A DNA stretch of 64,000 nucleotides from the NCBI RefSeq assembly GCF_009882945.1, contig NZ_WTUY01000005.1, forward strand, positions 62,001-126,000, given 5' to 3'. The notes below the pieces were generated by a model. That model saw only the letters and a list, made by a program, of their open reading frames with translations. It searched no databases and had not been told where the DNA came from. Source of the stretch: Alcanivorax sp. DP30. GTDB lineage: Bacteria > Pseudomonadota > Gammaproteobacteria > Pseudomonadales > Alcanivoracaceae. Positions 2,350-58,730 of this stretch are shown here, piece after piece (positions within the stretch are counted from its first letter, which is position 1; each line of letters starts with the position of its first letter). A program made the position numbers and the translations under genes.

Positions 2350-2456
2350 AGTTACAAGCTTCAAGCTGCAAGCTACAACGCGAATCGAGTCTGCTCCAGG
2401 GGTTGACGTCTGCCGCCGCGTTGTAGTTTGCAGCTTGCAGCTTGTAGCTCATAACT
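2350..2456. repeat. Heptamer inverted-repeat element (AGCTACA family), rplI-dnaB
   Basis: Left arm 2350-2382 is exactly 33 nt: four heptamers (AGTTACA, AGCTTCA, AGCTGCA, AGCTACA) plus ACGCG. The right arm, 2417-2456, read on the other strand, has five heptamers of the same kind and ends with the same ACGCG. A 34-nt loop lies between. The arms could fold into a long hairpin in the rplI-dnaB gap, after the terminator. It encodes nothing. Confidence 0.9.
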
Positions 2457-2472
2457 GGATCCTGGTTATTCC

Positions 2473-3867
2473 ATGAACGAACCCATGCCGCTGGATAAAC
2501 ATCTCCCTGAAAACCTGAAAATTCCGCCCAATTCTGTGGAAGCGGAGCAGGCGATCCTGGGGGGGCTGCTGTTGAACAACAGTGCCTGGGATGATGTGGC
2601 CGAGAGAGTCGGGGCGCGTGATTTTTACCGCAAGGCGCACCGGCAGATCTTTGAAGTCATTGCCCAGCTGGTAGAGGAAGAGAATCCCTGTGATCTGGTG
2701 ACCGTCTCCCAGGCCCTGACCCAGTTGGGCCAGCTGGACGACATCGGCGGCATGACCTACCTCTCCGAGCTGGCACGCAATACCCCCAGTGCGGCGAATA
2801 TCACGGCCTATGCCGAAATCGTGCGCGAGCGCAGTATCCTGCGACAGCTGATCAACGTCTCCCACGACGTGGCCAACAGTGCCTTCAACACGGAAGGCCG
2901 CAAGTCGCTGGAAATTCTTGATCAGGCGGAATCTGCCATCTTCGAGATTGCGGAACAGCAGAAGAAGGGCTCCGGCCCCCAGGATATCAAGACCGTTCTG
3001 AAGAAGACGGTGGATCGCATTGACGAGCTCTACAAGAACAAGAGCGCCATCACTGGTGTTACCACCGGCTTTGATGAACTGGACAAGATGACCGGCGGTC
3101 TGCAGCCTTCCGACATGGTGGTCATCGCCGGTCGTCCTTCCATGGGGAAGACCACCTTCGCCATGAACCTGTGTGAGAACGTGGCGATCAAGGCCGGCAA
3201 GCCGGTGCTGGTGTTCTCCATGGAAATGCCCGCGGATTCCATCGTCATGCGGATGCTGGCCTCGCTGGGGCGTATCAACCAGACCTCGGTGCGATCCGGT
3301 AACCTGGAAAAGGATGACTGGCCGCGCATTACCTCGGCCATTCACATGCTTAGCGAGCAGAAATTCTTTATTGATGACACCCCGGCCCTGAGCCCGCTGG
3401 AAATGCGCGCCCGTGCCCGCCGGGTCGCCCGTGAGTGCGGCGGCGAGCTGGGTTGTATCATGGTCGATTACCTGCAGCTAATGCAGGTGCCCGGGGTGGA
3501 TAACCGGGTGAACGAAATCTCGGAAATTTCCCGCTCCCTGAAGGGGCTCGCCAAGGAACTCAATTGCCCTGTGTTGGCCCTCTCGCAGCTTAACCGCTCT
3601 CTGGAACAGCGCCCCAACAAGCGCCCGGTAATGTCGGATCTGCGGGAATCCGGGGCCATCGAGCAGGACGCGGATTTGATCACCTTCCTGTATCGGGACG
3701 AGGTGTACAACAAGGACACCAACGAGAAGGGTGTGGCGGAAGTCATCATCGGCAAGCAGCGTAACGGTCCCATCGGTACCGTGCGCCTGGCCTTCCAGGG
3801 GCAGTTTTCCCGGTTCGATGATCTGGCGCCGGAATACTACGCCCAGCTGGCAGCAATGGATGAATAG
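2473..3867 (+). CDS. dnaB: Replicative DNA helicase
   Basis: 464 residues, full DnaB length. The N-terminal collar domain (about 20-125, PPNSVEAEQAILGG) is followed by a linker helix and the RecA-like motor, with Walker A GRPSMGKTT near residue 219 and Walker B CIMVDYLQL near 326. The motif DLRESGAIEQDAD follows. It is the hexameric 5'-3' helicase of the replisome. No intein is present. Alr follows 26 bases later, the usual order in this lineage. Confidence 0.97.
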   Translation: MNEPMPLDKHLPENLKIPPNSVEAEQAILGGLLLNNSAWDDVAERVGARDFYRKAHRQIFEVIAQLVEEENPCDLVTVSQALTQLGQLDDIGGMTYLSELARNTPSAANITAYAEIVRERSILRQLINVSHDVANSAFNTEGRKSLEILDQAESAIFEIAEQQKKGSGPQDIKTVLKKTVDRIDELYKNKSAITGVTTGFDELDKMTGGLQPSDMVVIAGRPSMGKTTFAMNLCENVAIKAGKPVLVFSMEMPADSIVMRMLASLGRINQTSVRSGNLEKDDWPRITSAIHMLSEQKFFIDDTPALSPLEMRARARRVARECGGELGCIMVDYLQLMQVPGVDNRVNEISEISRSLKGLAKELNCPVLALSQLNRSLEQRPNKRPVMSDLRESGAIEQDADLITFLYRDEVYNKDTNEKGVAEVIIGKQRNGPIGTVRLAFQGQFSRFDDLAPEYYAQLAAMDE

Positions 3868-3893
3868 GGCGTCTGGCATCTAGCGAGCTTTCT

Positions 3894-4955
3894 ATGCGAG
3901 GCACACGGGTCGAAATTCGTAATGCGGCGCTGGCGCACAATGCCCGGCGGGCGAAGCAGTTGGCGGGACAGTCCGAGGTGTTCGCCATGGTCAAGGCCAA
4001 TGGCTATGGCCATGGGCTACTCAATGCCGCTACGGCCATGCTTGATCAGGTAGATGGCCTTGGGGTGGCTCTCCTGGAAGAGGCGGATCAGTTGCGCGAT
4101 GCCGGCATTGGCGCGCCTATTCTGGTGGCCGAAGGTTTCTTCGATCACGATGAGCTCAATGAGGCTCGCAGGCTATCGCTGGATGTGGTGGTTCACTCGC
4201 CCTGGCAGGTGGCGCTGTTGCTGGACAATCCCGGCACCAGCCGCATCTGGCTGAAACTCAATACTGGCATGAATCGTCTCGGGCTGCGTCCGGCCATTGC
4301 GCTGCAGGCGGCGGAGCAATTAGCGGCCGCCGGCATGAAACCGGTGGGGGTGATGACGCACTTTGCCTGTGCCGATGACGAGCAGGACTCAGGGACCAGC
4401 AGCCAACTGCATCTGGCTCAGGAAGTGGCCGATGCACTTGGGCTGCCACTGTCTGCGGCCAACTCCGCCGCCCTGATTCGTTACCCGCAAACCCATGGCA
4501 AGCGAGTGCGGCCTGGCATCATGCTCTATGGCTCTTCCCCGTTTCTATGGAAGAGCGCAGCGGAAATTGGCCTGAAAGTCAGCCACCGCTTCAGCGCCCG
4601 TCTGATTGCCATCAACGATATTCAGCCCGGCGAATCGGTAGGCTACGGGGCCACCTGGACCGCAGCGCAAGCCGGACGTGTCGGTGTAGTCGCTGTGGGT
4701 TATGGCGATGGCTATCCCCGCCACGCCCCCAACGGCACCCCTGCCGCTATCAATGGCGAGCCCACCGTGCTGGTAGGGCGGGTATCCATGGATATGCTCA
4801 CCATCGATCTGAACGGCATTGATGCCCACGTGGGTGATGAGGTGGAGCTGTGGGGCGATGTGGTGGATGTGGATGCGGTGGCGAAAGCCTGCGGAACCAT
4901 CAGCTATGAGTTGTTCTGCCAGATCACCAGCCGTCCCGAACGTATTATCGTTTAA
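3894..4955 (+). CDS. alr: Alanine racemase
   Basis: 353 residues. PLP-binding lysine sits in MVKANGYGHG near residue 34, and the catalytic tyrosine in SVGYGATW near 250, within the fold type III barrel plus C-terminal beta domain. It interconverts L- and D-alanine for peptidoglycan. The start is 26 bases after dnaB, suggesting co-transcription. The first residues (MRGTRVEIRNAAL) align with the family start. Confidence 0.95.
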   Translation: MRGTRVEIRNAALAHNARRAKQLAGQSEVFAMVKANGYGHGLLNAATAMLDQVDGLGVALLEEADQLRDAGIGAPILVAEGFFDHDELNEARRLSLDVVVHSPWQVALLLDNPGTSRIWLKLNTGMNRLGLRPAIALQAAEQLAAAGMKPVGVMTHFACADDEQDSGTSSQLHLAQEVADALGLPLSAANSAALIRYPQTHGKRVRPGIMLYGSSPFLWKSAAEIGLKVSHRFSARLIAINDIQPGESVGYGATWTAAQAGRVGVVAVGYGDGYPRHAPNGTPAAINGEPTVLVGRVSMDMLTIDLNGIDAHVGDEVELWGDVVDVDAVAKACGTISYELFCQITSRPERIIV

Positions 4956-4966
4956 TTCGTCGTCGC

Positions 4967-5115
4967 TGTAGGAGCACCTCTTGGGGTGCGAATGCGAGCG
5001 TTAGCGAGTAACGAGTTGCGAAAAAGCAAAATCCAAACCGACCGTGCCTGATGGGTTGGGTTTTCGCAACGCGCTTCTTGTAACTGTTTTGTTCGCACCT
5101 CAAGCGGTGTCCCCC
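4967..5115. repeat. Nested REP-like plus heptamer inverted-repeat element, alr-radA
   Basis: Two layers of symmetry fill the alr-radA gap. Outer arms (4967-4992 and about 5089-5115) carry a REP-like GTAGGAGCAC...GGTGCGAA sequence facing its complement. Inner arms (4993-5025 and 5060-5085) carry heptamers such as AGTAACG, AGTTGCG and AGAAGCG around a 34-nt loop. The left inner arm is again 33 nt. Beyond it, 5116-5200 is GC-rich with small palindromes and gives only a spurious upstream extension of the radA frame. Confidence 0.8.
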
Positions 5116-5200
5116 TTTGGGGCCGCACTCCGTGCGTTACTCCGCTGCGCTACGTTCTTGCGGCGGCCTTGTCGATACGCCTGCACAAGAAGGATTTGTT

Positions 5201-6568
5201 GTGGCCAAGAAAAAAATCGCCTTTGTATGCACTGATTGCGGTGCGGATACGCCCAAGTGGCAGGGCCAGTGCCCGTCCTGTGGTGCCTGGAATACCCTGC
5301 AGGAATTTGTCCACGATCCCGCCACGCCGTCCTCCAAGGGCGCAGGGAGCCGTGGTGGGTTTGCCGGGCAGTTGTCCGAAGTGCAGAACCTCAACGACAT
5401 CGTTCTGGAAGAAACGCCGCGCATCGGCTCTGGCATGGGGGAACTGGATCGGGTGCTGGGCGGCGGGCTGGTGCCCGGGTCGGCGATCCTGATTGGGGGG
5501 CATCCCGGGGCCGGCAAGTCCACCTTGTTGCTGCAGATGTTGTGCCGGCTGGCGGATAGCCAGAAATCCCTTTATATCACCGGTGAGGAATCTCTTTCCC
5601 AGGTGGCCATGCGTGCCGATCGGCTCAAGCTGCCCAAGGACAGGCTGCGTATCGCAGCGGAAACCGATGTGGAACAAATCCTTGAGCTGGCCCGCAAGGA
5701 GCAGCCGAAGATTCTGGTGGTGGATTCCATCCAGGTCATGTTTCTTGCTGCCCTGCAGTCGGCGCCGGGCAGTGTGGCTCAGGTGCGCGAGTGTGCCGCA
5801 GCCCTGACCCGCTTTGCCAAGCAGACCGGCACAGTGTTGTTGCTGGTGGGGCATGTTACCAAGGACGGCACTCTGGCCGGCCCCAAGGTGCTGGAACACA
5901 TGATTGATTGCTCCCTGATGCTGGAAGGATCCACGGATTCCCGTTTTCGTACCCTGCGTGGCCTGAAGAACCGGTTCGGTGCAGTTAATGAACTGGGCGT
6001 GTTCGCCATGACCGGCGAAGGCCTCAAGGAAGTAAAGAATCCTTCCGCGATTTTTCTTAACCGTGCGGAAGAGATCGCATCGGGCTCACTGGTGACGGTG
6101 GTCTGGGAAGGTACCCGACCGTTGCTGGTAGAGCTGCAGGCGCTGGTGGATGCCTCGCACTTTGGCAACCCGCGTCGTGTCTGTGTGGGGCTGGAAGGGA
6201 ATCGTCTGGCCATGCTGCTGGCGATCTTGCATCGTCATGGCGGTATCCAGGTGGGCGACCAGGATGTGTTCATGAATGTGGTCGGCGGGGTGAAAGTCAC
6301 GGAAACTGCCGCAGACCTGTCCCAGGTGCTGGCCATCGTGTCCAGTTTTCGGGATCGTCCGCTTGAGCGTGAGCTGGTTGTGTTTGGTGAAGTGGGCCTG
6401 TCTGGGGAAATTCGCCCGGTGCCACAGGGGCAGGAACGTCTCTATGAGGCAGTGAAACACGGTTTCAAGAAAGCGATTGTGCCCAAGGCCAATCTGCCGA
6501 GAAACCTGCCCGAAGGCGTGGAGGTTATCGGGGTGAGTAATGTAGCGCAGGCGCTCGAGTACCTGTAA
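5201..6568 (+). CDS. radA: DNA repair protein RadA
   Basis: 455 residues from a GTG at 5201 (VAKKKIAF), chosen because an AGAAGGA site lies just before it and family members begin at this point. The four-cysteine zinc finger (CTDCG, CPSCG), Walker A GHPGAGKST near residue 103, the RadA-specific KNRFG motif near 256 and a C-terminal Lon-like domain are all present. RadA is a hexameric helicase-like protein promoting branch migration in RecA recombination. The frame continues upstream into repeat DNA, which is not coding. Confidence 0.95.
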   Translation: MAKKKIAFVCTDCGADTPKWQGQCPSCGAWNTLQEFVHDPATPSSKGAGSRGGFAGQLSEVQNLNDIVLEETPRIGSGMGELDRVLGGGLVPGSAILIGGHPGAGKSTLLLQMLCRLADSQKSLYITGEESLSQVAMRADRLKLPKDRLRIAAETDVEQILELARKEQPKILVVDSIQVMFLAALQSAPGSVAQVRECAAALTRFAKQTGTVLLLVGHVTKDGTLAGPKVLEHMIDCSLMLEGSTDSRFRTLRGLKNRFGAVNELGVFAMTGEGLKEVKNPSAIFLNRAEEIASGSLVTVVWEGTRPLLVELQALVDASHFGNPRRVCVGLEGNRLAMLLAILHRHGGIQVGDQDVFMNVVGGVKVTETAADLSQVLAIVSSFRDRPLERELVVFGEVGLSGEIRPVPQGQERLYEAVKHGFKKAIVPKANLPRNLPEGVEVIGVSNVAQALEYL

Positions 6569-6572
6569 AGGC

Positions 6573-6605
6573 AATGAATAGTTAATAGTGAATAATTAAT
6601 AGCTA
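6573..6605 (+). repeat. Single heptamer arm (AGTTAAT family) after radA
   Basis: A solitary 33-nt arm, four bases after the radA stop: AATGAAT, AGTTAAT, AGTGAAT, AATTAAT and then AGCTA. I found no facing partner. Downstream, to 6780, is non-coding; a hairpin around 6721-6748 (GATGGGC/GCCCATT) may end transcription between radA and the convergent gene. Confidence 0.8.
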
Positions 6606-6780
6606 AAACAGGAACCGGAGCCGGCCCCCGCAGGAGCTCAACGTGTTGAGCGAAGAGGCCCGAAACCGTGTGCCGGATTTCTGTTGATAGGGCAGGGGGG
6701 CAGCGGTTTGAAGAACATGGCGGAGATGGGCTTGCGCCCATTTCCGCCCTACGGTTCCATCATTGACGTCCAGCGTTTAT

Positions 6781-7557: not shown

Positions 7558-7695
7558 AACTCCTCCTTTAGGCAGACAGTATCACGCTGCCGTGTGGTGA
7601 TGCCGTGATGCTGTGTGTCTCAAGGGGGGGGTACGACTGCCTGCGTCATGCTGCCTTGCTGGAAAGGATACGACGCAGGAGGTTTCTGTCAGCCT

Positions 7696-8802: not shown

Positions 8803-8859
8803 GGGAGTCTGGTTGTCGGCAAGTGTGCGGGCAGCCGCTGGCTGCCCGCGAGACCCGGT

Positions 8860-13260: not shown

Positions 13261-13355
13261 AGTCGCGAGGTACGAGTAACGAGTTTCGAAAGGCAAACCC
13301 TGGAAGGGGGATCATGCTGTTGATTGTCGAAACTTGTTACTCGCTTCTCGCTGCT
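13261..13355. repeat. Heptamer inverted-repeat element (AGTTACG family), arsM-reductase gap
   Basis: Left arm 13261-13293 (AGTCGCG, AGGTACG, AGTAACG, AGTTTCG, AAAGG) and right arm 13323-13355 (opposite strand: AGCAGCG, AGAAGCG, AGTAACA, AGTTTCG, ACAAT) are both exactly 33 nt around a 29-nt loop. It occupies the gap between arsM and the downstream reductase gene, where a stable hairpin could lower read-through. Confidence 0.9.
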
Positions 13356-17807: not shown

Positions 17808-19064
17808 ATGTTCCCGAAATCCATGTCCATTGCCGAGTTCGATCCGGAAATCCAGGCGGCCATCGAGGCCGAGGAAGTCCGTCAGGAAGAGCACATCGAA
17901 CTGATTGCTTCTGAAAACTATGCCTCGCCAAGGGTCATGGAAGCCCAGGGCTCCGTGCTGACCAACAAGTACGCCGAAGGCTACCCGGGCAAGCGCTACT
18001 ACGGTGGCTGTGAAAATGTGGACGTGGTGGAGCAGCTGGCGATCGACCGTGCTTGTGAACTGTTTGGCGCTGACTGGGCCAACGTGCAGCCGCACTCCGG
18101 TTCCCAGGCCAACGCTGCGGTCTACATGGCCGTGCTGCAGGCGGGCGACACCGTGCTGGGCATGAGCCTGGACGCGGGTGGCCACCTGACCCACGGTGCC
18201 AAGCCGAACTTCTCCGGCAAGACCTACAACGCCATTCAGTACGGTCTGGACAACGAGACCGGTCTGATTGACTACGAGCAGGTAGAAACCCTGGCCCGTG
18301 AGCACAAGCCGAAAATGATCGTGGCGGGTTTCTCTGCCTACTCCCAGGTGGTGGACTGGCAGCGTTTCCGTGATATCGCCGACGAAGTGGGCGCCATCCT
18401 GCTGGTGGATATGGCCCACGTGGCCGGTCTGGTTGCCGCAGGCGTGTACCCGAGCCCGGTTGGCATTGCTGACATCACCACCACCACCACCCACAAGACT
18501 CTGGGTGGCCCCCGTGGCGGCCTGATCATGGGCAAGGCCAACGATGAGATTCAGAAGAAGATCAACTCTGCCGTGTTCCCCGGTGGCCAGGGCGGCCCGC
18601 TGGAGCACGTGATTGCCGCCAAGGCGATCTGCTTCAAGGAAGCCATGCAGCCTGACTTCAAGGGCTACCAGCAGCAGGTGGTGAAGAACGCCCAGGCCAT
18701 GGCCAGCGTGTTCATCGAGCGTGGTTTTGACGTGGTCTCCAACGGCACCGAAAACCACCTGTTCCTGCTCAGCCTGATCAAGCAGGACATCACCGGTAAA
18801 GATGCCGACGCCGCCCTGGGCCGTGCCTTCATCACCGTGAACAAGAACGCCGTGCCCAACGACCCGCGTTCCCCGTTCGTGACTTCCGGCCTGCGCATCG
18901 GCTCCCCGTCCATCACCCGCCGTGGTTTCAATGAAAACGACGCCAAAGAACTGGCCGGCTGGATCTGCGACATTCTCGACAACATGGGCGATGAGTCTGT
19001 GATTGAGAGTGTGAAAGGCAAGGTGAAGGAGATTTGTGCTCGGTTGCCGGTGTACGAACGGTAA
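17808..19064 (+). CDS. glyA: Serine hydroxymethyltransferase
   Basis: 418 residues, the usual length. The [10 protein letters not shown] motif is near residue 32, and the PLP lysine lies in [14 protein letters not shown] near 229. It converts serine and tetrahydrofolate to glycine and methylene-THF. A TAGAAT -10-like element lies at 17761-17766. The TAA stop overlaps the first bases of a heptamer arm belonging to the inserted element at 19063. Codon use is strongly biased, as expected for a highly expressed gene. Confidence 0.97.
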
Positions 19065-19510
19065 TTGAAAATTGACAATGGATAATTGATAACTGGAGGC
19101 CAAGGATGGCTGAAGGTAGTGTGGTGCGGGTAAAGTCCCGCGCTTTTGCTTTGCGGGTGGTGAAAGTCTGTCAGTATCTGCAGGAGCAAAAGCGAGAGTA
19201 CGTGCTTAGCAAGCAGCTCTTGCGAAGTGGTACAGCTATTGGCGCTCTTGTTCGAGAGGCTGAACAGGCCGAGAGTCGGGCAGACTTTATTCATAAGCTG
19301 TCCATTGCCCTGAAGGAAGCAAGTGAAACTGAGTATTGGCTGGATTTGCTGACCGAGTCTGGTTATTTCGAAAAGCGAGCAGGAAGCTCTGTGCTGCAGG
19401 ATGTGGATGAGTTGTTGAAGCTGCTCACCTCGATTATAAAAACCTCAAAAAGACGTCGCTAATCGGTTTTTGGGTTTTCGTTATCAATTATTAATTATCA
19501 ACTATCAATT
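19063..19510. mobile_element. Gene-bearing heptamer inverted-repeat element between glyA and nrdR
   Basis: Left arm 19063-19095 is AATTGAA, AATTGAC, AATGGAT, AATTGAT plus AACTG. Right arm 19478-19510, on the opposite strand, is AATTGAT, AGTTGAT, AATTAAT, AATTGAT plus AACGA. Both are 33 nt with four heptamers. The 382-nt interior carries one gene for a four-helix-bundle protein. The left arm touches the glyA stop and the right arm ends nine bases before the nrdR ATG, so an otherwise contiguous gene pair has been split. The symmetry is seen; mobility is inference. Confidence 0.75.
19106..19462 (+). CDS. Four-helix-bundle protein (23S rRNA IVP / Avd-like)
   Basis: 118 residues, almost wholly helical, matching the four-helix-bundle family found in 23S rRNA intervening sequences and related to the Avd accessory protein of diversity-generating retroelements. 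Recognisable segments are LLRSGTAIGALVREAEQAES (about 38-57) and FIHKLSIALKEASETEYWLDLL. Related proteins assemble as basic pentamers that bind nucleic acid. The GGAGG ribosome site lies just inside the left arm. No rRNA, reverse transcriptase or variable repeat is nearby, so its role here is unknown; I infer it is the element's own protein. Confidence 0.85.
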   Translation: MAEGSVVRVKSRAFALRVVKVCQYLQEQKREYVLSKQLLRSGTAIGALVREAEQAESRADFIHKLSIALKEASETEYWLDLLTESGYFEKRAGSSVLQDVDELLKLLTSIIKTSKRRR

Positions 19511-21182: not shown

Positions 21183-21343
21183 GCAGGAGCGTCGCTGGCG
21201 GCGCGATATCCAGGGCCAGAAGCGAGTCACGAGTTTCAAAAAGCGAAAACCTTCAGGCAGTGCCATCTTCTGGTTTTGCCTTTCGAAACTCGTGCCCCGA
21301 CACGGGAAACTGTCTGATCGCGCCGCGAAACGACGCTTCTACA
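21183..21343. repeat. Nested REP-like plus heptamer element, ribD-ribE
   Basis: Outer arms (21183-21211 and 21317-21343) are facing REP-like copies around GGAGCGTCG and GGCGCGAT. Inner arms (21218-21243: AGAAGCG, AGTCACG, AGTTTCA, AAAAG; and about 21279-21297 on the opposite strand: GGGCACG, AGTTTCG, AAAGG) are shortened heptamer arms around a 35-nt loop. This is the same nested plan as at 4967-5115. Confidence 0.8.
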
Positions 21344-21366: not shown

Positions 21367-22032
21367 ATGTTTACCGGCATTATTGAAGCCATGGGCACAG
21401 TGGCATCCATGACTCCCAAAGGCGGCGATGTGACTCTGCTGGTCAAGAGCGATGATCTGGATTTCAGCGATGTGCAGCTGGGCGATTCGATTGCCGTGAA
21501 TGGCGTCTGCCTGACGGCTACGGCCCTGCCGGGCGGGGCTTTCGAAGCGGATGTGTCCGGGGAGACTCTGTCGCTGACGTCTCTGCAGCAGATTGCCGTG
21601 GGCAGCAAGGTGAACCTTGAGAAGGCACTGACCCCGACCACCCGGCTGGGTGGACACCTTGTCAGCGGCCATGTGGACGGGCTGGGCAGCATCGTCGAGA
21701 TGAAACAGGATGCCCGCTCTGTGCGCATTGATATCCAGGCGCCGGCGGAGCTTGCCAAATACATCGCCCACAAAGGCTCGATTACCGTGGATGGCATCAG
21801 CCTTACGGTGAACAGCGTGTCGGGCGCGGTGTTCTCCCTGAACATCATCCCGCACACCCAGGACATCACCACCATCGGCCAGTGGAAGGTGGGGACGCCA
21901 GTGAACCTGGAAGTTGATATAATCGCCCGCTATCTGGAGCGCCTGCTGATGGGGGAGAAGGCCGCCGAGCCCACTTCCCAGGGTATTTCCATGGCGTTCC
22001 TGGCGGAAAACGGGTTTCTAAAAGGCGTCTGA
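21367..22032 (+). CDS. ribE: Riboflavin synthase, alpha chain
   Basis: 221 residues from ATG at 21367 (MFTGIIEAMG), the invariant family start; an upstream in-frame extension lies in repeat DNA. Two homologous lumazine-binding barrels are present, with VNGVCLTA near 43 and VDGISLTVNSV in the second. It dismutates two lumazines to riboflavin. Its stop codon lies inside a 33-nt heptamer palindrome, so the last residues (KGV) are partly supplied by the repeat. Confidence 0.96.
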   Translation: MFTGIIEAMGTVASMTPKGGDVTLLVKSDDLDFSDVQLGDSIAVNGVCLTATALPGGAFEADVSGETLSLTSLQQIAVGSKVNLEKALTPTTRLGGHLVSGHVDGLGSIVEMKQDARSVRIDIQAPAELAKYIAHKGSITVDGISLTVNSVSGAVFSLNIIPHTQDITTIGQWKVGTPVNLEVDIIARYLERLLMGEKAAEPTSQGISMAFLAENGFLKGV

Positions 22033-22057
22033 CGTCAGACGTCGGACGTCAGACGCT
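22025..22057. repeat. 33-nt heptamer palindrome overlapping the ribE stop (ACGTCAG family)
   Basis: Read in phase, this is GCGTCTG, ACGTCAG, ACGTCGG, ACGTCAG and ACGCT, the standard 4x7+5 arm. It is also nearly its own reverse complement, so it can fold with no loop. The ribE stop (22030-22032) lies within it. Confidence 0.85.
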
Positions 22058-23238: not shown

Positions 23239-23242
23239 TATG

Positions 23243-23317
23243 GGGTCAGACGTCTGAGGTCAGACGTCCGACGGCAGAATCAAAAGCGTCTGACGTCAGA
23301 CTTCCGACGTCCGGCCG
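23243..23317. repeat. Heptamer inverted-repeat element (ACGTCAG family), ribBA-ribH
   Basis: Left arm 23243-23275: GGGTCAG, ACGTCTG, AGGTCAG, ACGTCCG plus ACGGC. Right arm 23285-23317 on the opposite strand: CGGCCGG, ACGTCGG, AAGTCTG, ACGTCAG plus ACGCT. Each is 33 nt with only a 9-nt loop. It starts four bases after the ribBA stop. Confidence 0.9.
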
Positions 23318-23373
23318 CAAGTTAAACACTGAGTCGGTCGCCGTGAGCCACCGGCACTGACAGGAAGGCAAAC

Positions 23374-24407: not shown

Positions 24408-24473
24408 GTGTCAGACGTCTGACGCCAAAAGCCTTGATCACTCTCCAGGTTTTTAGTTTTTTGCGTCCGACCC
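24408..24473. repeat. Short, decayed heptamer element after nusB
   Basis: GTGTCAG, ACGTCTG and ACGCC (24408-24426) include the perfect 14-base palindrome GTCAGACGTCTGAC. A degenerate facing copy, TGCGT then CCGACCC, lies at 24462-24473. This looks like a worn member of the ACGTCAG family, in the nusB-thiL gap. Confidence 0.55.
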
Positions 24474-24523
24474 CTGCCCCGCGAATCTGGTAATTGCCGG
24501 GCCGCCCACACTAGACTGATAAC

Positions 24524-31121: not shown

Positions 31122-31235
31122 TTGTGGGAGCTTGCCCGCAAGAGACCCGAGCGGGGGCGAGGAATAGGTTTCGAGTTACGAGAAGCGAGTTGCGAAAATC
31201 AAGGAAGCCGCGCCCCTGCTGGGCGCGGCTTCCTT
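31122..31235. repeat. REP-like copy, single heptamer arm and strong bidirectional hairpin
   Basis: 31122-31143 is a REP-like TTGTGGGAGCTTGCCCGCAA hairpin. 31167-31199 is a 33-nt arm: GGTTTCG, AGTTACG, AGAAGCG, AGTTGCG, AAAAT. 31201-31235 is a 14-bp GC-rich stem (AAGGAAGCCGCGCC and its complement) that can end transcription from the minus-strand porin gene. A similar hairpin sits in the loop of the element at 47654. Confidence 0.75.
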
Positions 31236-36692: not shown

Positions 36693-36742
36693 GCAGGGAA
36701 GTATGGCGGAAAACCCGGGCAGGGCAATGACAAAAAGCGACC

Positions 36743-36819
36743 AGCTACGAGCTACAAGCTACAAGCTACAAGCTACAAGCTACAAGCTACAAGCTACAAG
36801 CTACAAGCTACAAGCTACA
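36743..36819 (+). repeat. Expanded heptamer tract: 11 units of AGCTACA
   Basis: 77 nt made of AGCTACG followed by ten perfect AGCTACA units, uninterrupted. The unit is the same as in the inverted-repeat elements at 2350 and 58589, but no facing arm is present. It lies in the 328-base gap between the thioesterase and dusC, which otherwise shows no gene. Perfect units suggest recent expansion by slippage. Confidence 0.95.
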
Positions 36820-37020
36820 CTCGGTTGGAATAAGAAAGGCCGAAAAGTTCCCGGTGTTCCGCTATTCCTGCGAAGCCGCTGTAGGTGCTGCCTTCCAGTG
36901 GGCGAACCGCGCCACAGCGAGGTAAGGATCCCAGAAACGCATTGGAGATGTGGAATGCTTCCCTTCCCTTCCCACCCACCGTACGTGCCGTCTGCCCCAT
37001 CCTGCTATAGAATCCGCGCC

Positions 37021-41264: not shown

Positions 41265-41421
41265 AGTTTAAAGTTCAAAGCTGAAAGTTAAAAAGCGTGC
41301 CTGATGTGATGGGTGCTTTGGTTGCAAAGCTCGGGCACTAACGGGTGGTTAGCGGCAGATTTCGAGTCAGGCGTAATCGCACCTGTCCCGCGTTTTAACT
41401 TTCAACTTTTAACTTCCAACT
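41265..41421. repeat. Heptamer inverted-repeat element (AGTTAAA family)
   Basis: Left arm 41265-41297: AGTTTAA, AGTTCAA, AGCTGAA, AGTTAAA plus AAGCG. Right arm 41389-41421 on the opposite strand: AGTTGGA, AGTTAAA, AGTTGAA, AGTTAAA plus ACGCG. Both are exactly 33 nt around a 91-nt loop without a gene. The right arm ends 12 bases before the next ATG. Confidence 0.92.
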
Positions 41422-47100: not shown

Positions 47101-47666
47101 TGCCACAACAGAATGGCCGTGCCGTCAAAGGGCTGGGGCTGGGGCTGGCCATCGCTGATCGAATCTGTCGGCTTTTGAATCACTCACTGACGGTTCGTTC
47201 GTGGCCAGGCCGGGGTACCTTGTTCAGTGTTACGGTGCCACTGGCCAGCGGAGAACTGCCTCCCATGTTGTCCAATGAGGACGAAGGGGAGACCCGTGAC
47301 GTCACCGGCATGCGGGTTTTCTGCGTGGATAATGACGCGGCCCTGCTGGCAGGTCTGGTGGAAGCACTGGAGACACTGGGTTGTGAGGTGGTCGCTGCCA
47401 GCGGTCTGGTGGATGCCCAGCGTAAGGCTCACGGATCCCCGGCGCCAGATCTGCTACTGGTGGATTACCAGCTGGATAACGAAAACGGTTTTGATGTGAT
47501 TCAAGGGCTGGATGACTGTTGGGAAGATGTGGTTCCCGCTACCCTGATGACCGCTGATCGTCGCCCGGAAATCCGTCAACAAGCGATGGATGGGGGAATT
47601 GGGTTTCTTCAGAAGCCGCTGACGGAGGCGATGCTTAAAAGAGCGCTTGAGGGAATTAATAGTTAA
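44196..47666 (+). CDS. SSS-domain hybrid histidine kinase (CrbS/MxtR-like)
   Basis: 1156 residues. An N-terminal sodium:solute symporter-like domain of about 13 helices (1-530) is followed by a PAS domain (about 635-745), a coiled linker, a HisKA domain with catalytic His in AAGHDLMQPLN near 803, an ATPase domain (GLGLGLAIADRIC near 985) and a C-terminal receiver (about 1045-1155, phospho-Asp in LLLVDYQL). This architecture is that of CrbS/MxtR kinases governing acetate use. The partner regulator is convergent, at 47795. The stop codon lies in a heptamer arm. Confidence 0.9.
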   Translation: MFSLWELSGLALCYVLVLFIIAWLGDRAAREGRKTFQNAWVYSLGLGVYCTSWTFFGAVGEAAQNGWNYLPIYLGPIITVLLGGSLIYKMVSVTQQQNITSIADFLAARYGKSRRLAVLVTLVAVIGVLPYIALQLKAVTLSFDYVLQDTDTASVDTALVVAALMALFTLLFGTRHIDTTEHQSGLMLAVSFESFVKLVAFVALGIYCLFSIFDGPADMWQSLAARPEVLQTFEPTLFSQSFVTALLLSMVAILCLPRQFHAGMVENNDLRHLRTTRWLLPLYLLMFAIFVLPIVVSGVLTQPYLLGQADTYMLSLPMAQDNSAMLVLSFIGGIAAATGMVIVSTMALAIMLTNEVLLPMWLQSRLNEKDQLSDLGKQLRLLRRASILVLLGLAFAFHTLIDRFDGLASIGLLSFAAVAQFSPALLGALYWRNGHKQGAFIGLGVGFLVWFYCLLMPVILPMDWVMILNTDGLLGLGLLRPHALLGIEGLEPLTHGVFWSVSLNLAAFIYFSRRARQDALDEAQAARFVDMPTDWWREGMGHPSITTAELLEVCRRGLGNPRAEPLFFDYMSRRHVAEDLELPAPLHLVRYVERLLAGAMGASTARIVMSSLLRKQNSRRDDVVRMMDEASELIQFNHQLLRTTIETIAQGICVVDRNMQVVAWNQAYVKLFEYPDGLIRLGRSIEEVYRFNAERGFYDGEDMDANVKKRVQLLRDGHSHRFERELPNGIVVEVRGTPMVGGGFVSTYMDITERKRDELALRQINENLEQMVSERTRKLTELNVQLAQANEGKTRFLAAAGHDLMQPLNAAQLFASSLRQQLRQQDAQGFAREVDVLGHIDSSLQTAEQIISALMEISKLDTGVMPVHVHPLSLQKMMEPLGQEFSALARASGLQLRMVPSSCIVDSDEVLLRRVLQNLLSNAIRYTETGRVLFGCRRRAGVVRIDVWDTGPGIPDDQHEQIFQEFQRLPQQNGRAVKGLGLGLAIADRICRLLNHSLTVRSWPGRGTLFSVTVPLASGELPPMLSNEDEGETRDVTGMRVFCVDNDAALLAGLVEALETLGCEVVAASGLVDAQRKAHGSPAPDLLLVDYQLDNENGFDVIQGLDDCWEDVVPATLMTADRRPEIRQQAMDGGIGFLQKPLTEAMLKRALEGINS

Positions 47667-47805
47667 TAATGAATAATTAATAGCTGCGCGCTCAGCGCCG
47701 CTAGGTTTTCAAATCAAGGAGGCCGCGCCCATGCACTGGGCGCGGCCTCTAACATTTCAATAAGAAACAATCTGGTCTGCGACGCTATTAACTATTAATT
47801 GTTAT
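47654..47805. repeat. Heptamer inverted-repeat element (AGTTAAT family) with internal terminator hairpin
   Basis: Left arm 47654-47686: AATTAAT, AGTTAAT, AATGAAT, AATTAAT plus AGCTG. Right arm about 47779-47805, opposite strand: AATTAAT, AGTTAAT plus AGCGT, with an outer remnant. The kinase stop (47664-47666) lies in the left arm, and the regulator stop (47795-47797) in the right. The loop holds an 11-bp GC hairpin (47720-47730 with 47738-47748) suited to ending both convergent transcripts. Confidence 0.88.
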
Positions 47806-48451
47806 CTACGCCTGGTTGTTCAATAGCAAGATCCTTCAGGGCCAGTACCGCCTGGGTGCGGTTTCGGACGCCCAGTTTGCGGAAGATGGCGGTCATGTGG
47901 GCCTTGATGGTGGCTTCGGAGACGTCCAGTTCGTAGGCAATCACCTTGTTCTGCATACCTTCCATGAGCATGCCCATTACCCGAAATTGCTGGGGCGTCA
48001 GGCTGGCAATGCGTTCGCTCATGGCGGACAGGTCCGGCAGTGACGGGGGCATGGCGCGGCGGGCGTGCTCGGGCAGCCAGCGTTCGCCGTTCATGACCTG
48101 CTGCATGGCCTCGGTCATGATGTCCACCGGTGTGGATTTGGGAATGAAGCCATCGGCGCCAAAATGAATGGCGCGCTGTATGACATCCACGTCCTCCGTG
48201 GCGGAAATGACGACAAGAGGCACCTTGCGATATTGCTCCCGCAGATAGATCAGCCCAGAGAAACCGTGTGTGCCCGGCATGTGCAAATCCAGCAGGATTA
48301 CATCGAACGGGACGGCGTTCTGGCCCAGTGACTCCAGTGTGGCAAGGGAATCCGCTTCGTGGATGTTGGCATCACGAAAACTGGCGCTGACAGCCTGCTT
48401 TAGCGCAGCGCGGAATAGGGGGTGGTCATCTGCGATCAGAATATTTGTCAT
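47795..48451 (-). CDS. LuxR-type response regulator (CrbR/ErdR-like)
   Basis: 218 residues. Receiver domain with phospho-Asp in DVILLDLHMPG near 56 and C-terminal HTH (about 145-210, LTPQQFRVMGMLMEGMQNK, VSEATIKAHM). NarL/FixJ family. Convergent with the SSS-domain kinase, its likely partner; CrbR/ErdR regulators activate acetate and ethanol utilisation genes such as acs. The final codons and stop are inside the repeat's right arm. Confidence 0.9.
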   Translation of the reverse strand: MTNILIADDHPLFRAALKQAVSASFRDANIHEADSLATLESLGQNAVPFDVILLDLHMPGTHGFSGLIYLREQYRKVPLVVISATEDVDVIQRAIHFGADGFIPKSTPVDIMTEAMQQVMNGERWLPEHARRAMPPSLPDLSAMSERIASLTPQQFRVMGMLMEGMQNKVIAYELDVSEATIKAHMTAIFRKLGVRNRTQAVLALKDLAIEQPGVDNN

Positions 48452-50166: not shown

Positions 50167-50172
50167 ATGGCG

Positions 50173-50233
50173 AGTCACGAGTTGCGGAAACCAACCATCA
50201 CCGGATTGGTGGGAGTTTTCGAAGCTCGTGACA
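50173..50233. repeat. Short heptamer inverted-repeat element (AGTTACG family)
   Basis: Left arm: AGTCACG, AGTTGCG, GAAAC (50173-50191). Right arm (50215-50233, opposite strand): TGTCACG, AGCTTCG, AAAAC. Two clear heptamers on each side around a 23-nt loop that itself contains CCAAC/GTTGG-like symmetry. It lies between the convergent porin and ectC terminators. Confidence 0.75.
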
Positions 50234-50323
50234 CGACACTTTTTCTCCCTGGGTGCCTTAAGAAGGAAAACCGATTTCCGGGATTTTTTGATTCTCGGTT
50301 TTGGCATGCTGCCCGAAGTGGCA

Positions 50324-50787: not shown

Positions 50788-50872
50788 GGATTCATTCTCC
50801 AGGGTGGTGAGGGAGTAAAAGTGCAGCCCGCCGTAGCGGGCTGCCGAGAGGAAGGTGTTTCCCCTGGCGGGA

Positions 50873-52745
<1,873 letters not shown>

Positions 52746-52773
52746 AGTCTCAGTAATGGTCCGCTTCGAAAGG

Positions 52774-53340: not shown

Positions 53341-53443
53341 GCTGCCTCCTCAAACAGTTTTGAGGTGTAAATGGCCTTTTTCGGTTCAACTTCCGGCTCA
53401 GCTAAGGCAAGGCCTTCAAATTCCTTGCTAGAATGGGAGGCGT

Positions 53444-53472
53444 ATTTTAGGGGTAAAACATTTAGATGTCAA
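53444..53472 (-). promoter_or_regulatory. Sigma-70 promoter of ectRABC with overlapping palindrome
   Basis: On the minus strand, TTGACA (53472-53467), a 17-base spacer and TAAAAT (53449-53444) make a near-consensus promoter about 100 bases upstream of ectR. ACAT-CTAA-ATGT (53458-53469) is a palindrome that overlaps the -35 element, a plausible EctR operator. Confidence 0.75.
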
Positions 53473-53662
53473 AGTAATAGCCGGGTCAAACCTGGCTGTT
53501 CGGGCGCCAGGGCGCGTCCCGCAAGCCTTTCAGCGGTGTGATGGCCATCATGGTTGTGGTGAATTTTTGATCAGCGACATGGCCTTCACTCTGTTAGTGT
53601 TCCCATCGTCGGCGAGGATTTTTATCCACGCCGATTCATTCGCATCAGGTGGAGGAAGAATC

Positions 53663-54565: not shown

Positions 54566-54660
54566 TAGTCGCTTACTGTCAATGCGATAGGTGCGCAAGC
54601 GCCCGTAAGTGGTCATTTTGCGGGTGAGTTTCTGCTAGACTTGCGCCCCCTTGAAGGAAA

Positions 54661-54731
54661 GGGTGATGAGCCCCACATGAAGTCGCTGTGGTAGCAGGTC
54701 CAATGCATGATCGGCTGTCAGCTCATTACCC
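54661..54731 (+). promoter_or_regulatory. Three-way-junction-like leader before folE2
   Basis: GGGTGATGAGC (54661-54671) pairs with GCTCATTACCC (54721-54731), 11 pairs with one wobble. Inside are a CCACA/TGTGG hairpin (54674-54693) and a weaker CAGGTC/GAT-GCTG hairpin. An extended -10 (TGCTAGACT, 54633-54641) would start transcription just before it, and the ribosome site follows the closing stem. It could be an uncharacterised riboswitch or protein-binding leader. I match it to no known class. Confidence 0.4.
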
Positions 54732-54746
54732 CCTGTGGAGAAACCC

Positions 54747-55706
54747 ATGACACGTGAAAACGGTGCTGGCGGCACCAAGCAGATGCCCGACGTGGCCTCC
54801 AACTCCATGGTGGATCACATCCATAGCACCCTGGACTGGGTGGGCATGAGCGAAATCCATCTGCCTGCCCGGGTGAGCGATACCCTGGCCGGTGAGCGCC
54901 CGGTGAGCACCTCTATCCAGGCTTATGTGAACCTGGCGAACCCGGATGCCAAGGGCATCCATATGTCGCGCCTGTTCCTGATGCTGGAAGAAACCTTTGG
55001 GGATCACTCGGTGAGCGCTGGCTCCATCGAGCAGCTGCTGCGTAACTTCCTGGAAACCCATCAGGGGCTCAGTACCCGTGGTTTCGTCCAGCTGGATTTC
55101 GAATACTCCATGCGTCGCCCGGCGCTGAAGAGCAGCTATTCCGGCTGGAAAAGCTACCCGGTCAGCATCAAGGGTACCCTTTGCGAAGAAGGCATGCGCA
55201 TAGAGATGTATGTGGAAGTGCCGTATTCCTCTACCTGTCCGTGTTCTGCGGCCCTGTCTCGTCAGTTGATCCAGGAACAGTTCCGCAAGGACTTTGCCGA
55301 CGGCAAGATTGATGCGGATGCCGTGCATGAATGGCTGGGCACCGAAGAAGGCATTGTGGCAACCCCGCATAGCCAGCGTTCTGTGGCCCAGGTGCGTGTG
55401 TTGCTGGACCACACCGAAGGTGATGCCTTCCCCATTACTGCCCTGATCGATTCCATCGAAGGCGCCCTGAAGACGCCGGTTCAGACCGCAGTGAAGCGGG
55501 TAGATGAGCAGGAATTTGCGCTGCTGAACGGCCAGAACCTGATGTTCTGTGAAGATGCGGCTCGCCGCCTCAAGCAGGCCATTAACCCACAATCCTGCTA
55601 CAAGGATTTCTGGCTGCGAGTGAACCATCTGGAAAGTCTCCACGCCCACAACGCGGTGGCTATTGTCACCAAGGAAGTGGATGGCGGTTACCTGCCGATT
55701 CCGTAA
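54747..55706 (+). CDS. folE2: GTP cyclohydrolase FolE2 (type IB)
   Basis: 319 residues from ATG at 54747. The T-fold motifs are [12 protein letters not shown] near 52, [18 protein letters not shown] with the catalytic cysteine near 167, and [20 protein letters not shown] near the end. It forms dihydroneopterin triphosphate, the entry to folate and queuosine, and can use metals other than zinc; it often replaces FolE under zinc limitation. No clear Zur box is seen; instead a structured leader precedes it. Confidence 0.93.
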
Positions 55707-55722
55707 AGTGCAGGTGGATGCG

Positions 55723-55750
55723 AAAAAGGCGGCCAATGGCCGCCTTTTTT
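55723..55750 (+). terminator. Rho-independent terminator after folE2
   Basis: AAAAAGGCGGCCA and TGGCCGCCTTTTTT form an 8-bp GC stem extended by A-T pairs. Its A- and T-tracts allow use on both strands. Confidence 0.85.
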
Positions 55751-55955
55751 GTGTCCGCTGCAGTGCTGGGTGATGTGCTGCGGTTGGCGAATCCATGTCG
55801 CGGCAGGGGATATTGTGACCCTGTGCAACGATTAGCACTATGGTCTCGACTACATTCCCTTTGCTGGTTACTGCACACGCAATGGTAGTTCGATGGACCA
55901 CTGACACCACAAACACAGCATAAAAATAACAATGTAATCCCAGGCAGGGGAGACT

Positions 55956-58586
55956 ATGAGTTCGGGAAGAACGGAGCGCCCGTTATCGGGGCAATTTTAC
56001 CGGCGTGATCTGGTGGTGCGTCTTGATGACTGCGGCCAGTTTCCGCTGACGCTGCTGCTGGCGCCGGCGGGCTCCGGCAAGTCCACCCTGTTGAGTCAGT
56101 GGCAGCAGCAAGTGGGTGATCGGCGAGTTGTGTTCATGGCTATCCAGCCCTCCGATGATGACCCGGTGCGTTTTCTGCGTCGCTTTGCCGAGCAGACCCG
56201 GGCCGTGGTGCCTGCCTTTGATACCTCCTGGTTCATGCCGTTCGATGTGGCCGAGTTGCCTCCTTCTTCCATTGCCGAAGCCCTTCAGGAGGCACTTGAG
56301 CAGGTGTCAGACCCGCTCTATATCGTGTTCGATGATTTTCAGCACATTCACAACAGTGAAACCCTGAAGGTGCTGGATGCCATGTGCGCGCACCCGCCGG
56401 GGGACGTGCATCTGATTATTGCCAGCCGCACTCGGCCATCCCTGAATCTTGCCTCGCTGCGACTGGCGGATGCGCTGCTGGAGCTGGATGCCGGTGCCTT
56501 GCGGGTGAAACGCGAGGAAGTGATCGAGCTGAACCAGCGGCTTGGTGGTGAGCCGCTGGAAGATAGCGCGCTAGATCACCTGATGAGCATCACCGAAGGC
56601 TGGGTGGCCGGCGTCAAGATTGCGCTGATGGGGGCCATCGGTTCCGGTGTGAATACCCTGCATGATTTTCATGCCAGCCAGCCCGAGATCATGGATTACT
56701 TTGGTCATGCAGTGCTCAAGGGGTTGCCGGACTTTGCCCGCAAGCTGTTTCTGGAAAGCAGCCTGTTGCACCACTTCAATGCCGAAATGTGCGATGCGGT
56801 GCTGGAGACCACCCACTCGGCCCAGCTGATGGAAGAACTGGCCCGGCGGGAGTTATTCATTATTCCGGTCCCCGGCCGGCCTGGCTGGTACCGCTACCAT
56901 GCGCTGTTGCGGGAGTGTCTGCAGGCACGAGTGGCCATCGATATGCCCGAGTGTGTAGCGCCATTGCACTGCCGGGCCACCCAATATTTCTTGCGCCAGG
57001 GCGATTTCGAACAGGCCATGTGGCATGCATTGCGTGCCGATGATGTGGACCTGTTACTGGATGCCCTGGCCCGTGCCTTCGATTTCTGGCTGCGCGAAGG
57101 CTATGGCAGCCAGATTCTGGAATGGGCGGAACAGATACCGGATGAAGAGCTGCTGGCGCGGCTGGATCTGGCCGCGCCCCTGATCAGCACGCTCACCCTG
57201 TCGCGCCGTTTCTTTCGTGCCCGCTTCTATCTGGATGCCTACCGGTCGCAGGTCAGTGCGACCTCCCGGAAAGATGACGATGGGCAGCAGATGCTCGAAT
57301 TTCTTGAGTTGCACCTGCAATTCTTTCAGCACGATACGGATTTCATGGAGGGGGCCAATTTATCGCTTTTGATGGAAACCAGCAGTCATCGGGATGTCCG
57401 TGCCTTTTCGCTGGCCATGGTGGCTTACTACCATCTTCAGCACGGGCGCCTGCAATCAGCGCTGGCCTTTTCCACCCAGGCCAGGGAGGTGCTTTTGCAG
57501 TTGGGGCAGAATTTCACTGCCGGCTATGCCGGGCTGGTGACGGCGCTGGCCAATCAACAAATGGGCCATATCGCGGAAGCGGTATCACTGGTGAATCAGC
57601 AGTTTGCGGCGACTCCGCGGGATTGTCCCACCTGGTCGCTGTGGGCCACCGGCATGGTAGTGGTGCTGTATGACCAGAACCGTCTGGACGAGGCCCGCCA
57701 ACTCTGTGAAGACCTGCTGCCGGTGGTGTCATCGGCGTCGGCCACCGAAGTGATTTCCACGGTGTATCTCACCCTGTCGCGGCTGCAGCATCATCAGGGC
57801 AGCCGCAAGAACTCCACACGCATGCTGGAAAAACTGCACAGTATCCTGCAGCTGGGCAACTACGAGCGCTTTCTCAACGAAGCGGTACTGGAGATGGTGC
57901 GCCAGGCCTATGTGAATGGTGAGTGGGCCCGGCTGGACGATATCGCCGAGCGTTTTCGGTTGCAGGAATGGGTAGAGGAAAATCTGGAGAAAACCACAGC
58001 GGATTACAGCCAGAGCTGGGAACGGCTGGGCCTGGCGGCAGTGTACTGGCTGATGGCCGCGGGCCGCGCCGAGGCTGCCAACAAGGCGCTGGCATTGCTG
58101 CGCAGCGTGGTTAACCGCGCGGGTATCCGCAGCCGCGGCGCCATCATGGACGCCAACCTGGTGGTGCTGGCCGGCCGGCAGAATAGTGACGCTGAACTGG
58201 CCCGGCAGCTTGATGCCCTGATTACCCGCTACGGCGTCATGAATATCAACCGCTCGGTGTTCGACGGCGCGCCAGGGTTGAGTGCCATGATGAGTGATCT
58301 GTGGCGGCGCGGTGTCCTAATGCTGCCGGATTTCTACACGGAGCTGTTTGCCGGCATTTTCAGTCAGGCGCCGGAACAGGCTGCGCTGGACGTGGATCCC
58401 GCCTCCGTACTCACCCCGAAAGAGTTGGAGATTTTCACGTTGCTGCAAAACGGTCTTAGCAACGCAAAGATCAGCGAGCACACTGGCGTCTCTGTGACGA
58501 CCACCAAGTGGCACCTGAAGAATATCTACAGCAAGCTGGGTGTCTCCAACCGCACCGAAGCCGCCCTGCGCGCCACACCAAGATAA
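55956..58586 (+). CDS. MalT/AlkS-type ATP-dependent LuxR regulator
   Basis: 876 residues. STAND ATPase domain with Walker [13 protein letters not shown] near 37-48 and Walker B-like YIVFDDFQHI near 125; a long TPR-like helical region (about 350-780); and a LuxR HTH at about 812-874 (LTPKELEIFTLLQNGLSNAKI). Length and layout match MalT and the alkane regulator AlkS. No alkane hydroxylase is encoded nearby, so the target is unknown; the heme peroxidase downstream is one candidate. Confidence 0.88.
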   Translation: MSSGRTERPLSGQFYRRDLVVRLDDCGQFPLTLLLAPAGSGKSTLLSQWQQQVGDRRVVFMAIQPSDDDPVRFLRRFAEQTRAVVPAFDTSWFMPFDVAELPPSSIAEALQEALEQVSDPLYIVFDDFQHIHNSETLKVLDAMCAHPPGDVHLIIASRTRPSLNLASLRLADALLELDAGALRVKREEVIELNQRLGGEPLEDSALDHLMSITEGWVAGVKIALMGAIGSGVNTLHDFHASQPEIMDYFGHAVLKGLPDFARKLFLESSLLHHFNAEMCDAVLETTHSAQLMEELARRELFIIPVPGRPGWYRYHALLRECLQARVAIDMPECVAPLHCRATQYFLRQGDFEQAMWHALRADDVDLLLDALARAFDFWLREGYGSQILEWAEQIPDEELLARLDLAAPLISTLTLSRRFFRARFYLDAYRSQVSATSRKDDDGQQMLEFLELHLQFFQHDTDFMEGANLSLLMETSSHRDVRAFSLAMVAYYHLQHGRLQSALAFSTQAREVLLQLGQNFTAGYAGLVTALANQQMGHIAEAVSLVNQQFAATPRDCPTWSLWATGMVVVLYDQNRLDEARQLCEDLLPVVSSASATEVISTVYLTLSRLQHHQGSRKNSTRMLEKLHSILQLGNYERFLNEAVLEMVRQAYVNGEWARLDDIAERFRLQEWVEENLEKTTADYSQSWERLGLAAVYWLMAAGRAEAANKALALLRSVVNRAGIRSRGAIMDANLVVLAGRQNSDAELARQLDALITRYGVMNINRSVFDGAPGLSAMMSDLWRRGVLMLPDFYTELFAGIFSQAPEQAALDVDPASVLTPKELEIFTLLQNGLSNAKISEHTGVSVTTTKWHLKNIYSKLGVSNRTEAALRATPR

Positions 58587-58588
58587 AA

Positions 58589-58730
58589 AGCTACAAGCTG
58601 CAAGGCGCGAATGAGGTTGTTGTTTGCTGCCATGCAGTGCCCGCGCTTCGGCGTATCCCCGTGGGCACGGCCAACAAGATTGGCAGGGCCGGTCCCGCGC
58701 CTTGTAGCTTGCAGCTTGATGCTTGTAGCT
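58589..58730. repeat. Heptamer inverted-repeat element (AGCTACA family) before the peroxidase
   Basis: Left arm 58589-58607: AGCTACA, AGCTGCA plus AGGCG, three bases after the regulator stop. Right arm 58698-58730 on the opposite strand: AGCTACA, AGCATCA, AGCTGCA, AGCTACA plus AGGCG, exactly 33 nt. The 90-nt loop has no gene. A separate C/G-rich palindrome (about 58777-58800, ACCCCCTCC/GGAGGGGGT) follows. Confidence 0.88.

Follow-up and report, generated by a model that had tools for sequence, protein, structure and literature searches.

The heptamer arrays dispersed over this genome are probably the inverted-repeat ends of small mobile elements, which resemble the intervening sequences (IVSs) of 23S rRNA genes, reside outside rRNA and are accompanied by gene-less satellites. 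The complete element carries a single gene, coding for an S23/IVP protein (23S rRNA-intervening sequence protein, PF05635), between two facing heptamer arms. This architecture recurs at IVP loci from six phyla. Elements replace each other at fixed sites, and the heptamer matches the IVP and, in several genomes, also the dispersed arrays.

Period-7 arrays in the window and the genome

The window, a stretch of 64,000 nt, comprises positions 62001–126000 of contig C23 in its own genome (G000, 3.62 Mb, 24 contigs). The closest RibD proteins (88%) come from Alcanivorax profundi and A. hongdengensis, which places the genome in Alcanivorax. Period-7 arrays are present at the places where the first-pass annotation had put them. 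The pattern ARYTNNNARYTNNNARYTNNNARYT matched 14 times in the window, 8 of these exact matches being overlapping readings of one 12-unit array, versus 0 in 100 shuffles. When 2 mismatches were allowed, 30 matches were found versus a shuffle mean of 0.78, and the same type of pattern set to period 8 gave 0 matches in the window with 2 mismatches. In a genome sample consisting of the window and 20 stretches of 20 kb (464 kb, 12.8% of the genome), 57 period-7 arrays were detected. Other periods yielded 1 (period 5), 0 (period 8), 3 (period 10) and 0 (period 11), and the codon-multiple periods 6 and 9 yielded 16 and 25. Approximately four units were counted in 36 of the 57 arrays, with a score threshold that may hide arrays shorter than about four units. 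Judged by mechanically called ORFs, 44 of the 57 are mostly intergenic, the intergenic share of the sampled sequence being 12.3%, and a stop codon lies within 15 nt of 21 out of these 44, compared with 15% of random intergenic positions. Expanded AGCTACR arrays are located at the ends of contigs C14 and C15 and beside N runs on C20. As they seem to break the assembly, the array counts for this genome are possibly lower bounds.

Arm geometry and facing pairs

The paired arrays are real, but four units are the mode and not a law, and the fixed geometry proposed initially was overstated. Apart from three shorter ones, the arms had been described as all exactly 33 nt long. In the 464-kb sample, an ungapped search found 20 heptameric inverted repeats with arms of 22–46 nt, only 2 of them of 33 nt, and the 99 heptameric arms of IVP elements have a median length of 31 nt, with 46 in the range of 28–34 nt. 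This spread rules out a fixed 33-nt geometry as a law, and we retain it as a mode. Four units of the form ANNTNNN, likewise claimed for these arms, are complete in 4 out of 15 named arms when read from their given starts (2350, 41265 and, in reverse, 19478 and 41389), and the ACGCG-like tail is found in some named arms but not in all 15. What did hold is the preservation of period 7 throughout a dispersed set, often arranged in facing pairs, in which the array sequences differ.

The dispersed arrays had been read as pairs facing each other. At nine of 15 re-examined sites (2350, 13261, 19063, 21218, 23243, 41265, 47654, 50173 and 58588) a facing partner downstream scored above the best of 100 shuffles, at the other six it did not. 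Scores at 4993 and 24408 fell just below the best of 100 shuffles, the array at 22025 is self-palindromic, and for 6573, 31167 and 36736 there was no partner within 500 bp downstream and none in the inverted-repeat list of the window. In the 464-kb sample the loops of gene-less pairs measure 6–269 nt, and a loop of 386 nt contains an IVP gene.

Gene-less pairs of the AGCTACA family are located at 2350–2449 (arms 2350–2382 and 2417–2449, score 53.4), between the L9 and DnaB genes, and at 58588–58717 (score 35.6), here with GGCGCG inner ends. The AGTTACG family is represented at 13265–13351 (score 34.6; absent from the corresponding gap of locus L016), at 21223–21299 (score 33.2), by a borderline pair at 5000–5084 after the alanine racemase gene (26.8 versus a shuffled maximum of 28.4) and by a short pair of this type at 50168–50238 (27.0 versus 21.6). 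CGTCAGA-family pairs are found at 23241–23319 between ribBA-like and ribH-like genes (score 36.6) and, short and borderline, at 24412–24476 between the NusB and AIRS genes (21.2 versus 21.6), and the self-palindromic CGTCAGA array (22025–22056) runs across the end of the riboflavin synthase gene. An AGTTTAA-family pair occupies 41265–41421 (arms 41265–41297 and 41389–41421, score 45), and an AATTAAT-family pair 47660–47808 (score 34.8), with a terminator-like hairpin inside (47708–47760). The arrays without a partner are of AATTAAT type (6573–6606), of AGTTACG type (31167–31199, by eye 5' of a terminator-like hairpin) and of the AGCTACA family (12 units, 36736–36819, upstream of a Dus domain), the last one missing from the list in the first-pass annotation. 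The 12-unit array is followed by AAAAGTTCCC (36736–36830 in total), which also occurs in the leader of the IVP copies on C20. The array together with AAAAGTTCCC is possibly the remnant of an IVP element.

By eye, the pair at 21223–21299 lies between the arms of a REP-like hairpin, GTAGGAGCG... (21185–21340), which is found in relatives with or without a heptamer pair. This location brought up insertion into hairpin loops as a possibility, which was set aside because stretches similar to the composite of hairpin and pair are dispersed in the genus.

The IVP gene and the complete element

For the pair at 19063/19478 the earlier description of a loop was incomplete, as the spacer is an IVP/S23 gene. 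The pair (19063–19093/19480–19510) lies between the SHMT and NrdR genes and encloses a PF05635 gene of 118 aa (19106–19462, plus strand), the sole gene of the complete element. The left arm, of the AATTGAT family (19063–19093, plus strand), extends over the stop codon of glyA, the SHMT gene, and has a facing score of 41 versus a shuffled maximum of 23.6; the right arm (19480–19510, minus strand) is located just 5' of nrdR. Complete elements measure about 430–500 bp and have no recognised nuclease or recombinase gene. The protein matches PF05635 (E 5.3e-26) and TIGR02436 (E 2.1e-29), both above cut-off, as well as the four-helix bundle of PDB 2RLD (E 3.5e-35). The best of five predicted models, two of which were poor, reached a pLDDT of 89.6 and a TM score of 0.90 to 2RLD. 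Both 2RLD and 2GSC hold five chains, and S23p of Xanthomonas is given as a homopentamer in the part of PMC4990558 consulted.

A PF05635 search found four IVP copies in the genome, with arms of AATTGAT (the window copy), CGTCAGA type (C22) and AGCTACA (two copies on C20, whose left arms are expanded and interrupted by Ns). All three families occur in the window also without an IVP gene. In this genome no IVP is accompanied by AGTTACG or AGTTAAA arms; IVPs with arms like these were found in other species (L119; L113, L115).

Many gene-less loops hold a GC-rich core of their own. In a rough comparison with 20 shuffles each, 11 out of 153 loop pairs were similar at z >5, and 5 of these 11 cross arm families, as if the arms were exchangeable on one shared core. 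Terminator-like hairpins are present in two sampled loops of the AATTAAT family (L191:302; L197:17326) in addition to the window pair. We rejected the gene-less pairs as plain deletion products of the IVP element, given their different inner ends and their own GC-rich cores. Within the searched sequence of this genome, the right inner end of the IVP element, GGTTTTCC-TTGnAGCTTG, occurs once, at an IVP copy, and CGCG-TTGnAGCTTG occurs 10 times, a count that includes two elements on both strands.

Arrays beside IVP genes in other bacteria

We assembled 115 IVP loci, picked by protein match only. Of these, 69 come from Gammaproteobacteria outside the family and 31 from family members, while 15 lie on plasmids (11 from Cyanobacteriota, the remaining four from Bacteroidota, Bacillota, Spirochaetota and Chloroflexota, one locus per phylum). 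The 69 were taken from 109 PF05635 places listed for genomes other than this one and comprise 29 new loci and 40 chosen down the list, the 40 places left out being lower-scoring, partial, with in-frame stops or repeats within one genome. For the family, 31 out of 65 places were examined, for the plasmids 15 out of 25 records.

Arrays with a score of at least 9 are located on both sides of the gene at 47 of 69 non-family loci, 23 of 31 family loci and 14 of 15 plasmid loci, compared with 0, 0 and 0 when flanks 500 bp further out were searched. At a score of at least 11, arrays are present on one side or more in 57/69, 29/31 and 14/15 loci, with 4, 0 and 0 in the control. Beside the IVP loci every period except 7 and 14 stays at a count of 1 or below. 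Terminal inverted repeats surround the gene in the window element and in 105 of the 115 loci, 99 of them heptameric; 450 bp further out, inverted repeats were found in 16 of 109. The heptamer varies by locus (TAGGGAG, GTGATGG, AGATTCA, GGTCGGA, TAATTCG and others) and the period stays 7.

The both-sides threshold was missed by 22 of the 69 loci outside the family, and the IVPs at L232, L269 and L270 have no arms. The genome of L270 (G370, 1.5 Mb) holds 11 weak PF05635 matches, one of which was read and lacks heptamer arrays alongside. Armless IVPs could have been IVSs embedded in 23S rRNA. This was rejected, as Rfam finds rRNA in none of 20 loci, most of them selected because their arms are weak or missing, and tRNA in four. 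Plasmid IVP genes (L279, L293, L284, L272, L283, L295, L282) are often located in a defence-type operon or next to one: they separate or adjoin cas1 and cas2, lie between HsdS and HsdR or between a helicase and a methylase, or adjoin a DISARM gene.

Cognate heptamers and genome-wide association

The heptamer adjoining an IVP gene was also searched for in whole genomes, where it can predict the dispersed repeats. Three units of GTGATGG, read from G129 and G253, matched 62 and 52 times in these two genomes and once in 26 others. AGTTCTG, read as three units from G181, matched 10 times in that genome, all at its own IVP, 107 times in G169, where the IVP flanks also show AGTTCTG units, and 0 times in 26 others. 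AGATTCA is confined to the IVP's own arms in G307 (two matches were found in G102), therefore dispersal of the heptamer is not universal; G181 and G307 both have an armed IVP and no dispersed copies of its heptamer. Three units of GGGAATC matched 36 times in G412, by our guess a xanthomonad; the remaining 368 genomes gave four single matches, with 2 mismatches each. In G412 the array is found on the left flank only, beside a partial IVP match (L268).

Across 5530 pairs of loci not both from Alcanivoracaceae, heptamer similarity rises from 0.43 at less than 30% protein identity to 0.68 at more than 70%, the latter class consisting of 18 pairs, several from one genus. Outside the family, heptamer and protein similarity correlate with a rho of 0.21, a value that none of 300 permutations reached. 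Shared descent accounts for part of the rise.

Matches to the ARYT pattern in 46 family genomes have a median of 132 (4–763) in the 29 genomes with an IVP and of 1 (0–14) in the 17 without, a comparison that is uncorrected for phylogeny and follows genera closely. Within genus g1 the sole genome without an IVP has 1 match, the others 12–763; within g2 the corresponding numbers are 3 and 4–223. The reversed-pattern control is itself high in some family genomes (348 in G005), probably from other heptamers fitting the pattern.

These counts also bear on an improbable explanation, albeit the most probable of the alternatives, that RAYT-type Y1 transposases (PF01797) move the gene-less pairs, which would be satellites similar to REPINs, and that only the IVP copies need the IVP. 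The genome has 3 PF01797 matches, gene-less loops contain REP-like GC-rich cores, one pair sits between REP-like arms, and the array-poor G001 lacks both PF01797 and IVP. However, nine family genomes with PF01797 and no IVP hold 0–14 pattern matches, and G045, with an IVP and no PF01797, holds 8. Furthermore, among 20 Y1 loci from 7 genomes of the genus (out of 118 PF01797 matches) none has two-sided arrays within 700 bp and 1 has a one-sided array.

Evolution at fixed sites

Orthologous gaps were compared, as the first-pass annotation had suggested, and presence/absence as well as swaps of family were found. The gap between glyA and nrdR holds an IVP element in 16 out of 17 Alcanivorax species, by eye with four arm families. 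Left and right arms score 48.8 on average within species versus 34.3 between species; only in 4 of 16 species does the left arm find its best match in the right arm of the same species, since arm families are shared among species. IVPs of the same arm family have identities of 0.838 or more and those of different families 0.820 or less (16 species), and the four neighbouring genes are 0.956 identical both within and between. A partial Mantel test of arm alignment scores against the IVP gave r 0.63 (p 0.001; 16 species). Arm family and IVP thus change together while the neighbours do not; therefore, arms and gene are exchanged as a unit, independently of the host. Linkage alone could be the cause of their travelling together.

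By eye, the gap between ribE and ribBA carries a heptamer element in 17 of 17 species, of at least five families, and the element of G012 (L177) is a chimera with arms from two heptamer families. Between nusB and thiL only this genome and G012 have one (by eye, 17 species). At L024 and L025 a gene-less pair of another heptamer is located at the site where relatives carry the IVP element. In Nostoc sp. C052 an IVP element with perfect 36-nt ends is present in pC052_A and absent from pC052_D; these plasmids are 94.8% identical over 82% of the stretch, and the filled site lacks about 200 bp of the target. By eye, the absent stretch (L277 compared with L286) belongs to an HNH-like gene. An IVP element occupies the cas1–cas2 spacer of two plasmids but not that of a third. 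Neither a target-site duplication nor a clean empty site was found among eight groups of related loci and three plasmid sets.

Gaps differ wholesale even between genomes that are 94% alike. That entire gaps differ between close species, and that some arrays are expanded to at least 12 units, is what one would expect if slippage and homologous recombination of operon segments made and swapped the arrays and the IVP genes were incidental. We consider this slightly less probable still than movement by Y1 transposases: two-sided arrays accompany IVP genes in six phyla while the control flanks gave 0, the Y1 transposase genes of the same genus lack such a setting (0/20 two-sided, 1/20 one-sided), and the arms face each other and in several cases match the dispersed arrays of the genome.

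A model for IVP elements

In our reading the arrays are probably the ends of IVS-like mobile elements. A complete element consists of a heptamer arm, a short leader, one IVP/S23 gene and the facing heptamer arm, and the gene-less pairs would be satellites whose arms are of this kind too. Most probably, the homopentameric IVP would recognise the arms as DNA and pair the two ends; a ring that reads repeats would suit facing arms of four to five heptamers. It would then promote insertion or exchange, often just 3' of stop codons inside operons. That the IVP binds the arms appears likely to us; whether it also drives the movement we rate at slightly under even chances. As no nuclease gene was recognised in the element, the cutting step would come from the host, from another element (e.g. 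a Y1 transposase) or from an unseen activity of the IVP. More tentatively, each IVP may read its own heptamer, with approximately one unit per subunit of the five-fold ring and the protein sequence setting the repeat. The elements may then form a mobile class without recombinase and may be the source of much of the heptamer excess in bacteria, from the cyanobacterial STRRs to GGGAATC of Xanthomonas.

Least probable of all is a role at the RNA level, with the arms as transcript hairpins (attenuator or RNase III site) and the IVP as a protein that binds them as RNA, in analogy to 23S rRNA IVSs: arrays do follow stop codons inside operons, AATTAAT-family loops hold terminator-like hairpins, RNase III cleaves the IVS RNA of Coxiella in vitro (PMC4990558, in the part consulted) and the IVP fold resembles Avd, which is found in structures of DGR reverse-transcriptase ribonucleoproteins, but an RNA stem needs no period of 7 and G-U and A-C mismatches are equally frequent in heptameric IVP-element arms (111 each). 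The absence of a wobble excess gives no sign of selection on RNA stems and points to DNA rather than RNA as the relevant form of the arms.

Relation to known systems

Like the IVSs of 23S rRNA, the IVP elements carry one small S23/IVP gene between terminal inverted repeats, and according to the consulted part of PMC4990558 the Coxiella IVS has tandem GACAGAT heptamers before S23p. Unlike these, the window element is located between the SHMT and NrdR genes and not within a 23S rRNA gene, and IVP elements have heptamer arms of many sequences and gene-less dispersed relatives.

GGGAATC of Xanthomonas and GGGGAYT of Nostoc are repeats of period 7, mostly with four units, in convergent pairs near stop codons, and PMC4692102 treats them as G-quadruplex formers. 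The Alcanivorax arrays share the period, the approximately four units, the facing pairs and the proximity to stop codons. In the portion of PMC4692102 covered here, paired, mostly four-unit heptamers are already described for Xanthomonas, without the protein: the terms 's23' and 'xcc0516' gave 0 matches. In contrast to that description, the heptamer is here tied to an IVP gene, with one GGGAATC case.

The STRRs of cyanobacteria and the TAACTGA repeats of Beggiatoaceae are tandem heptamers, as are the arrays of the window and the genome, and they are mostly intergenic. The part of PMC4679880 considered describes them as direct repeats (169 sets, one inverted) and contains neither 's23' nor 'intervening' (0 matches). 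Cyanobacteria contribute 11 of our 15 plasmid loci, 10 of them with two-sided arrays. The cyanobacterial STRRs may belong with the IVP elements.

With MITEs and REPINs the heptamer elements share many dispersed, short, gene-less copies with terminal inverted repeats. They differ in that the period is conserved and not the sequence and that no transposase partner was found: the IVP element has the same kind of ends, as expected of the autonomous relative of a MITE, but the IVP is not a known transposase, and, unlike in REPIN/RAYT systems, none of the 20 PF01797 loci has arrays on both sides and 1 has an array on one side. The modelled IVP fold is similar to that of Avd from diversity-generating retroelements (4DWL, TM 0.76, Foldseek E 0.063), and homology of Avd with PF05635 is noted in the part of PMC10053308 consulted; in contrast to Avd systems, one-gene IVP elements of about 450 bp are too small for a reverse transcriptase.

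No paper that links S23/IVP to heptamer repeats in general was found among the matches listed, with preprints and most subscription papers outside the scope of the search, and the priority of this link is not certain. A paper on CRISPR mining has '23S rRNA IVP' once in its consulted part, in a figure legend (PMC10910872).

The association of IVP genes and heptamer arrays ties together three matters: the target of S23/IVP, the route by which rRNA IVSs could move and the abundance of seven-base repeats in some bacteria. Should the sequence of the IVP determine which heptamers it reads, the protein would be a small and variable reader of repeat DNA.
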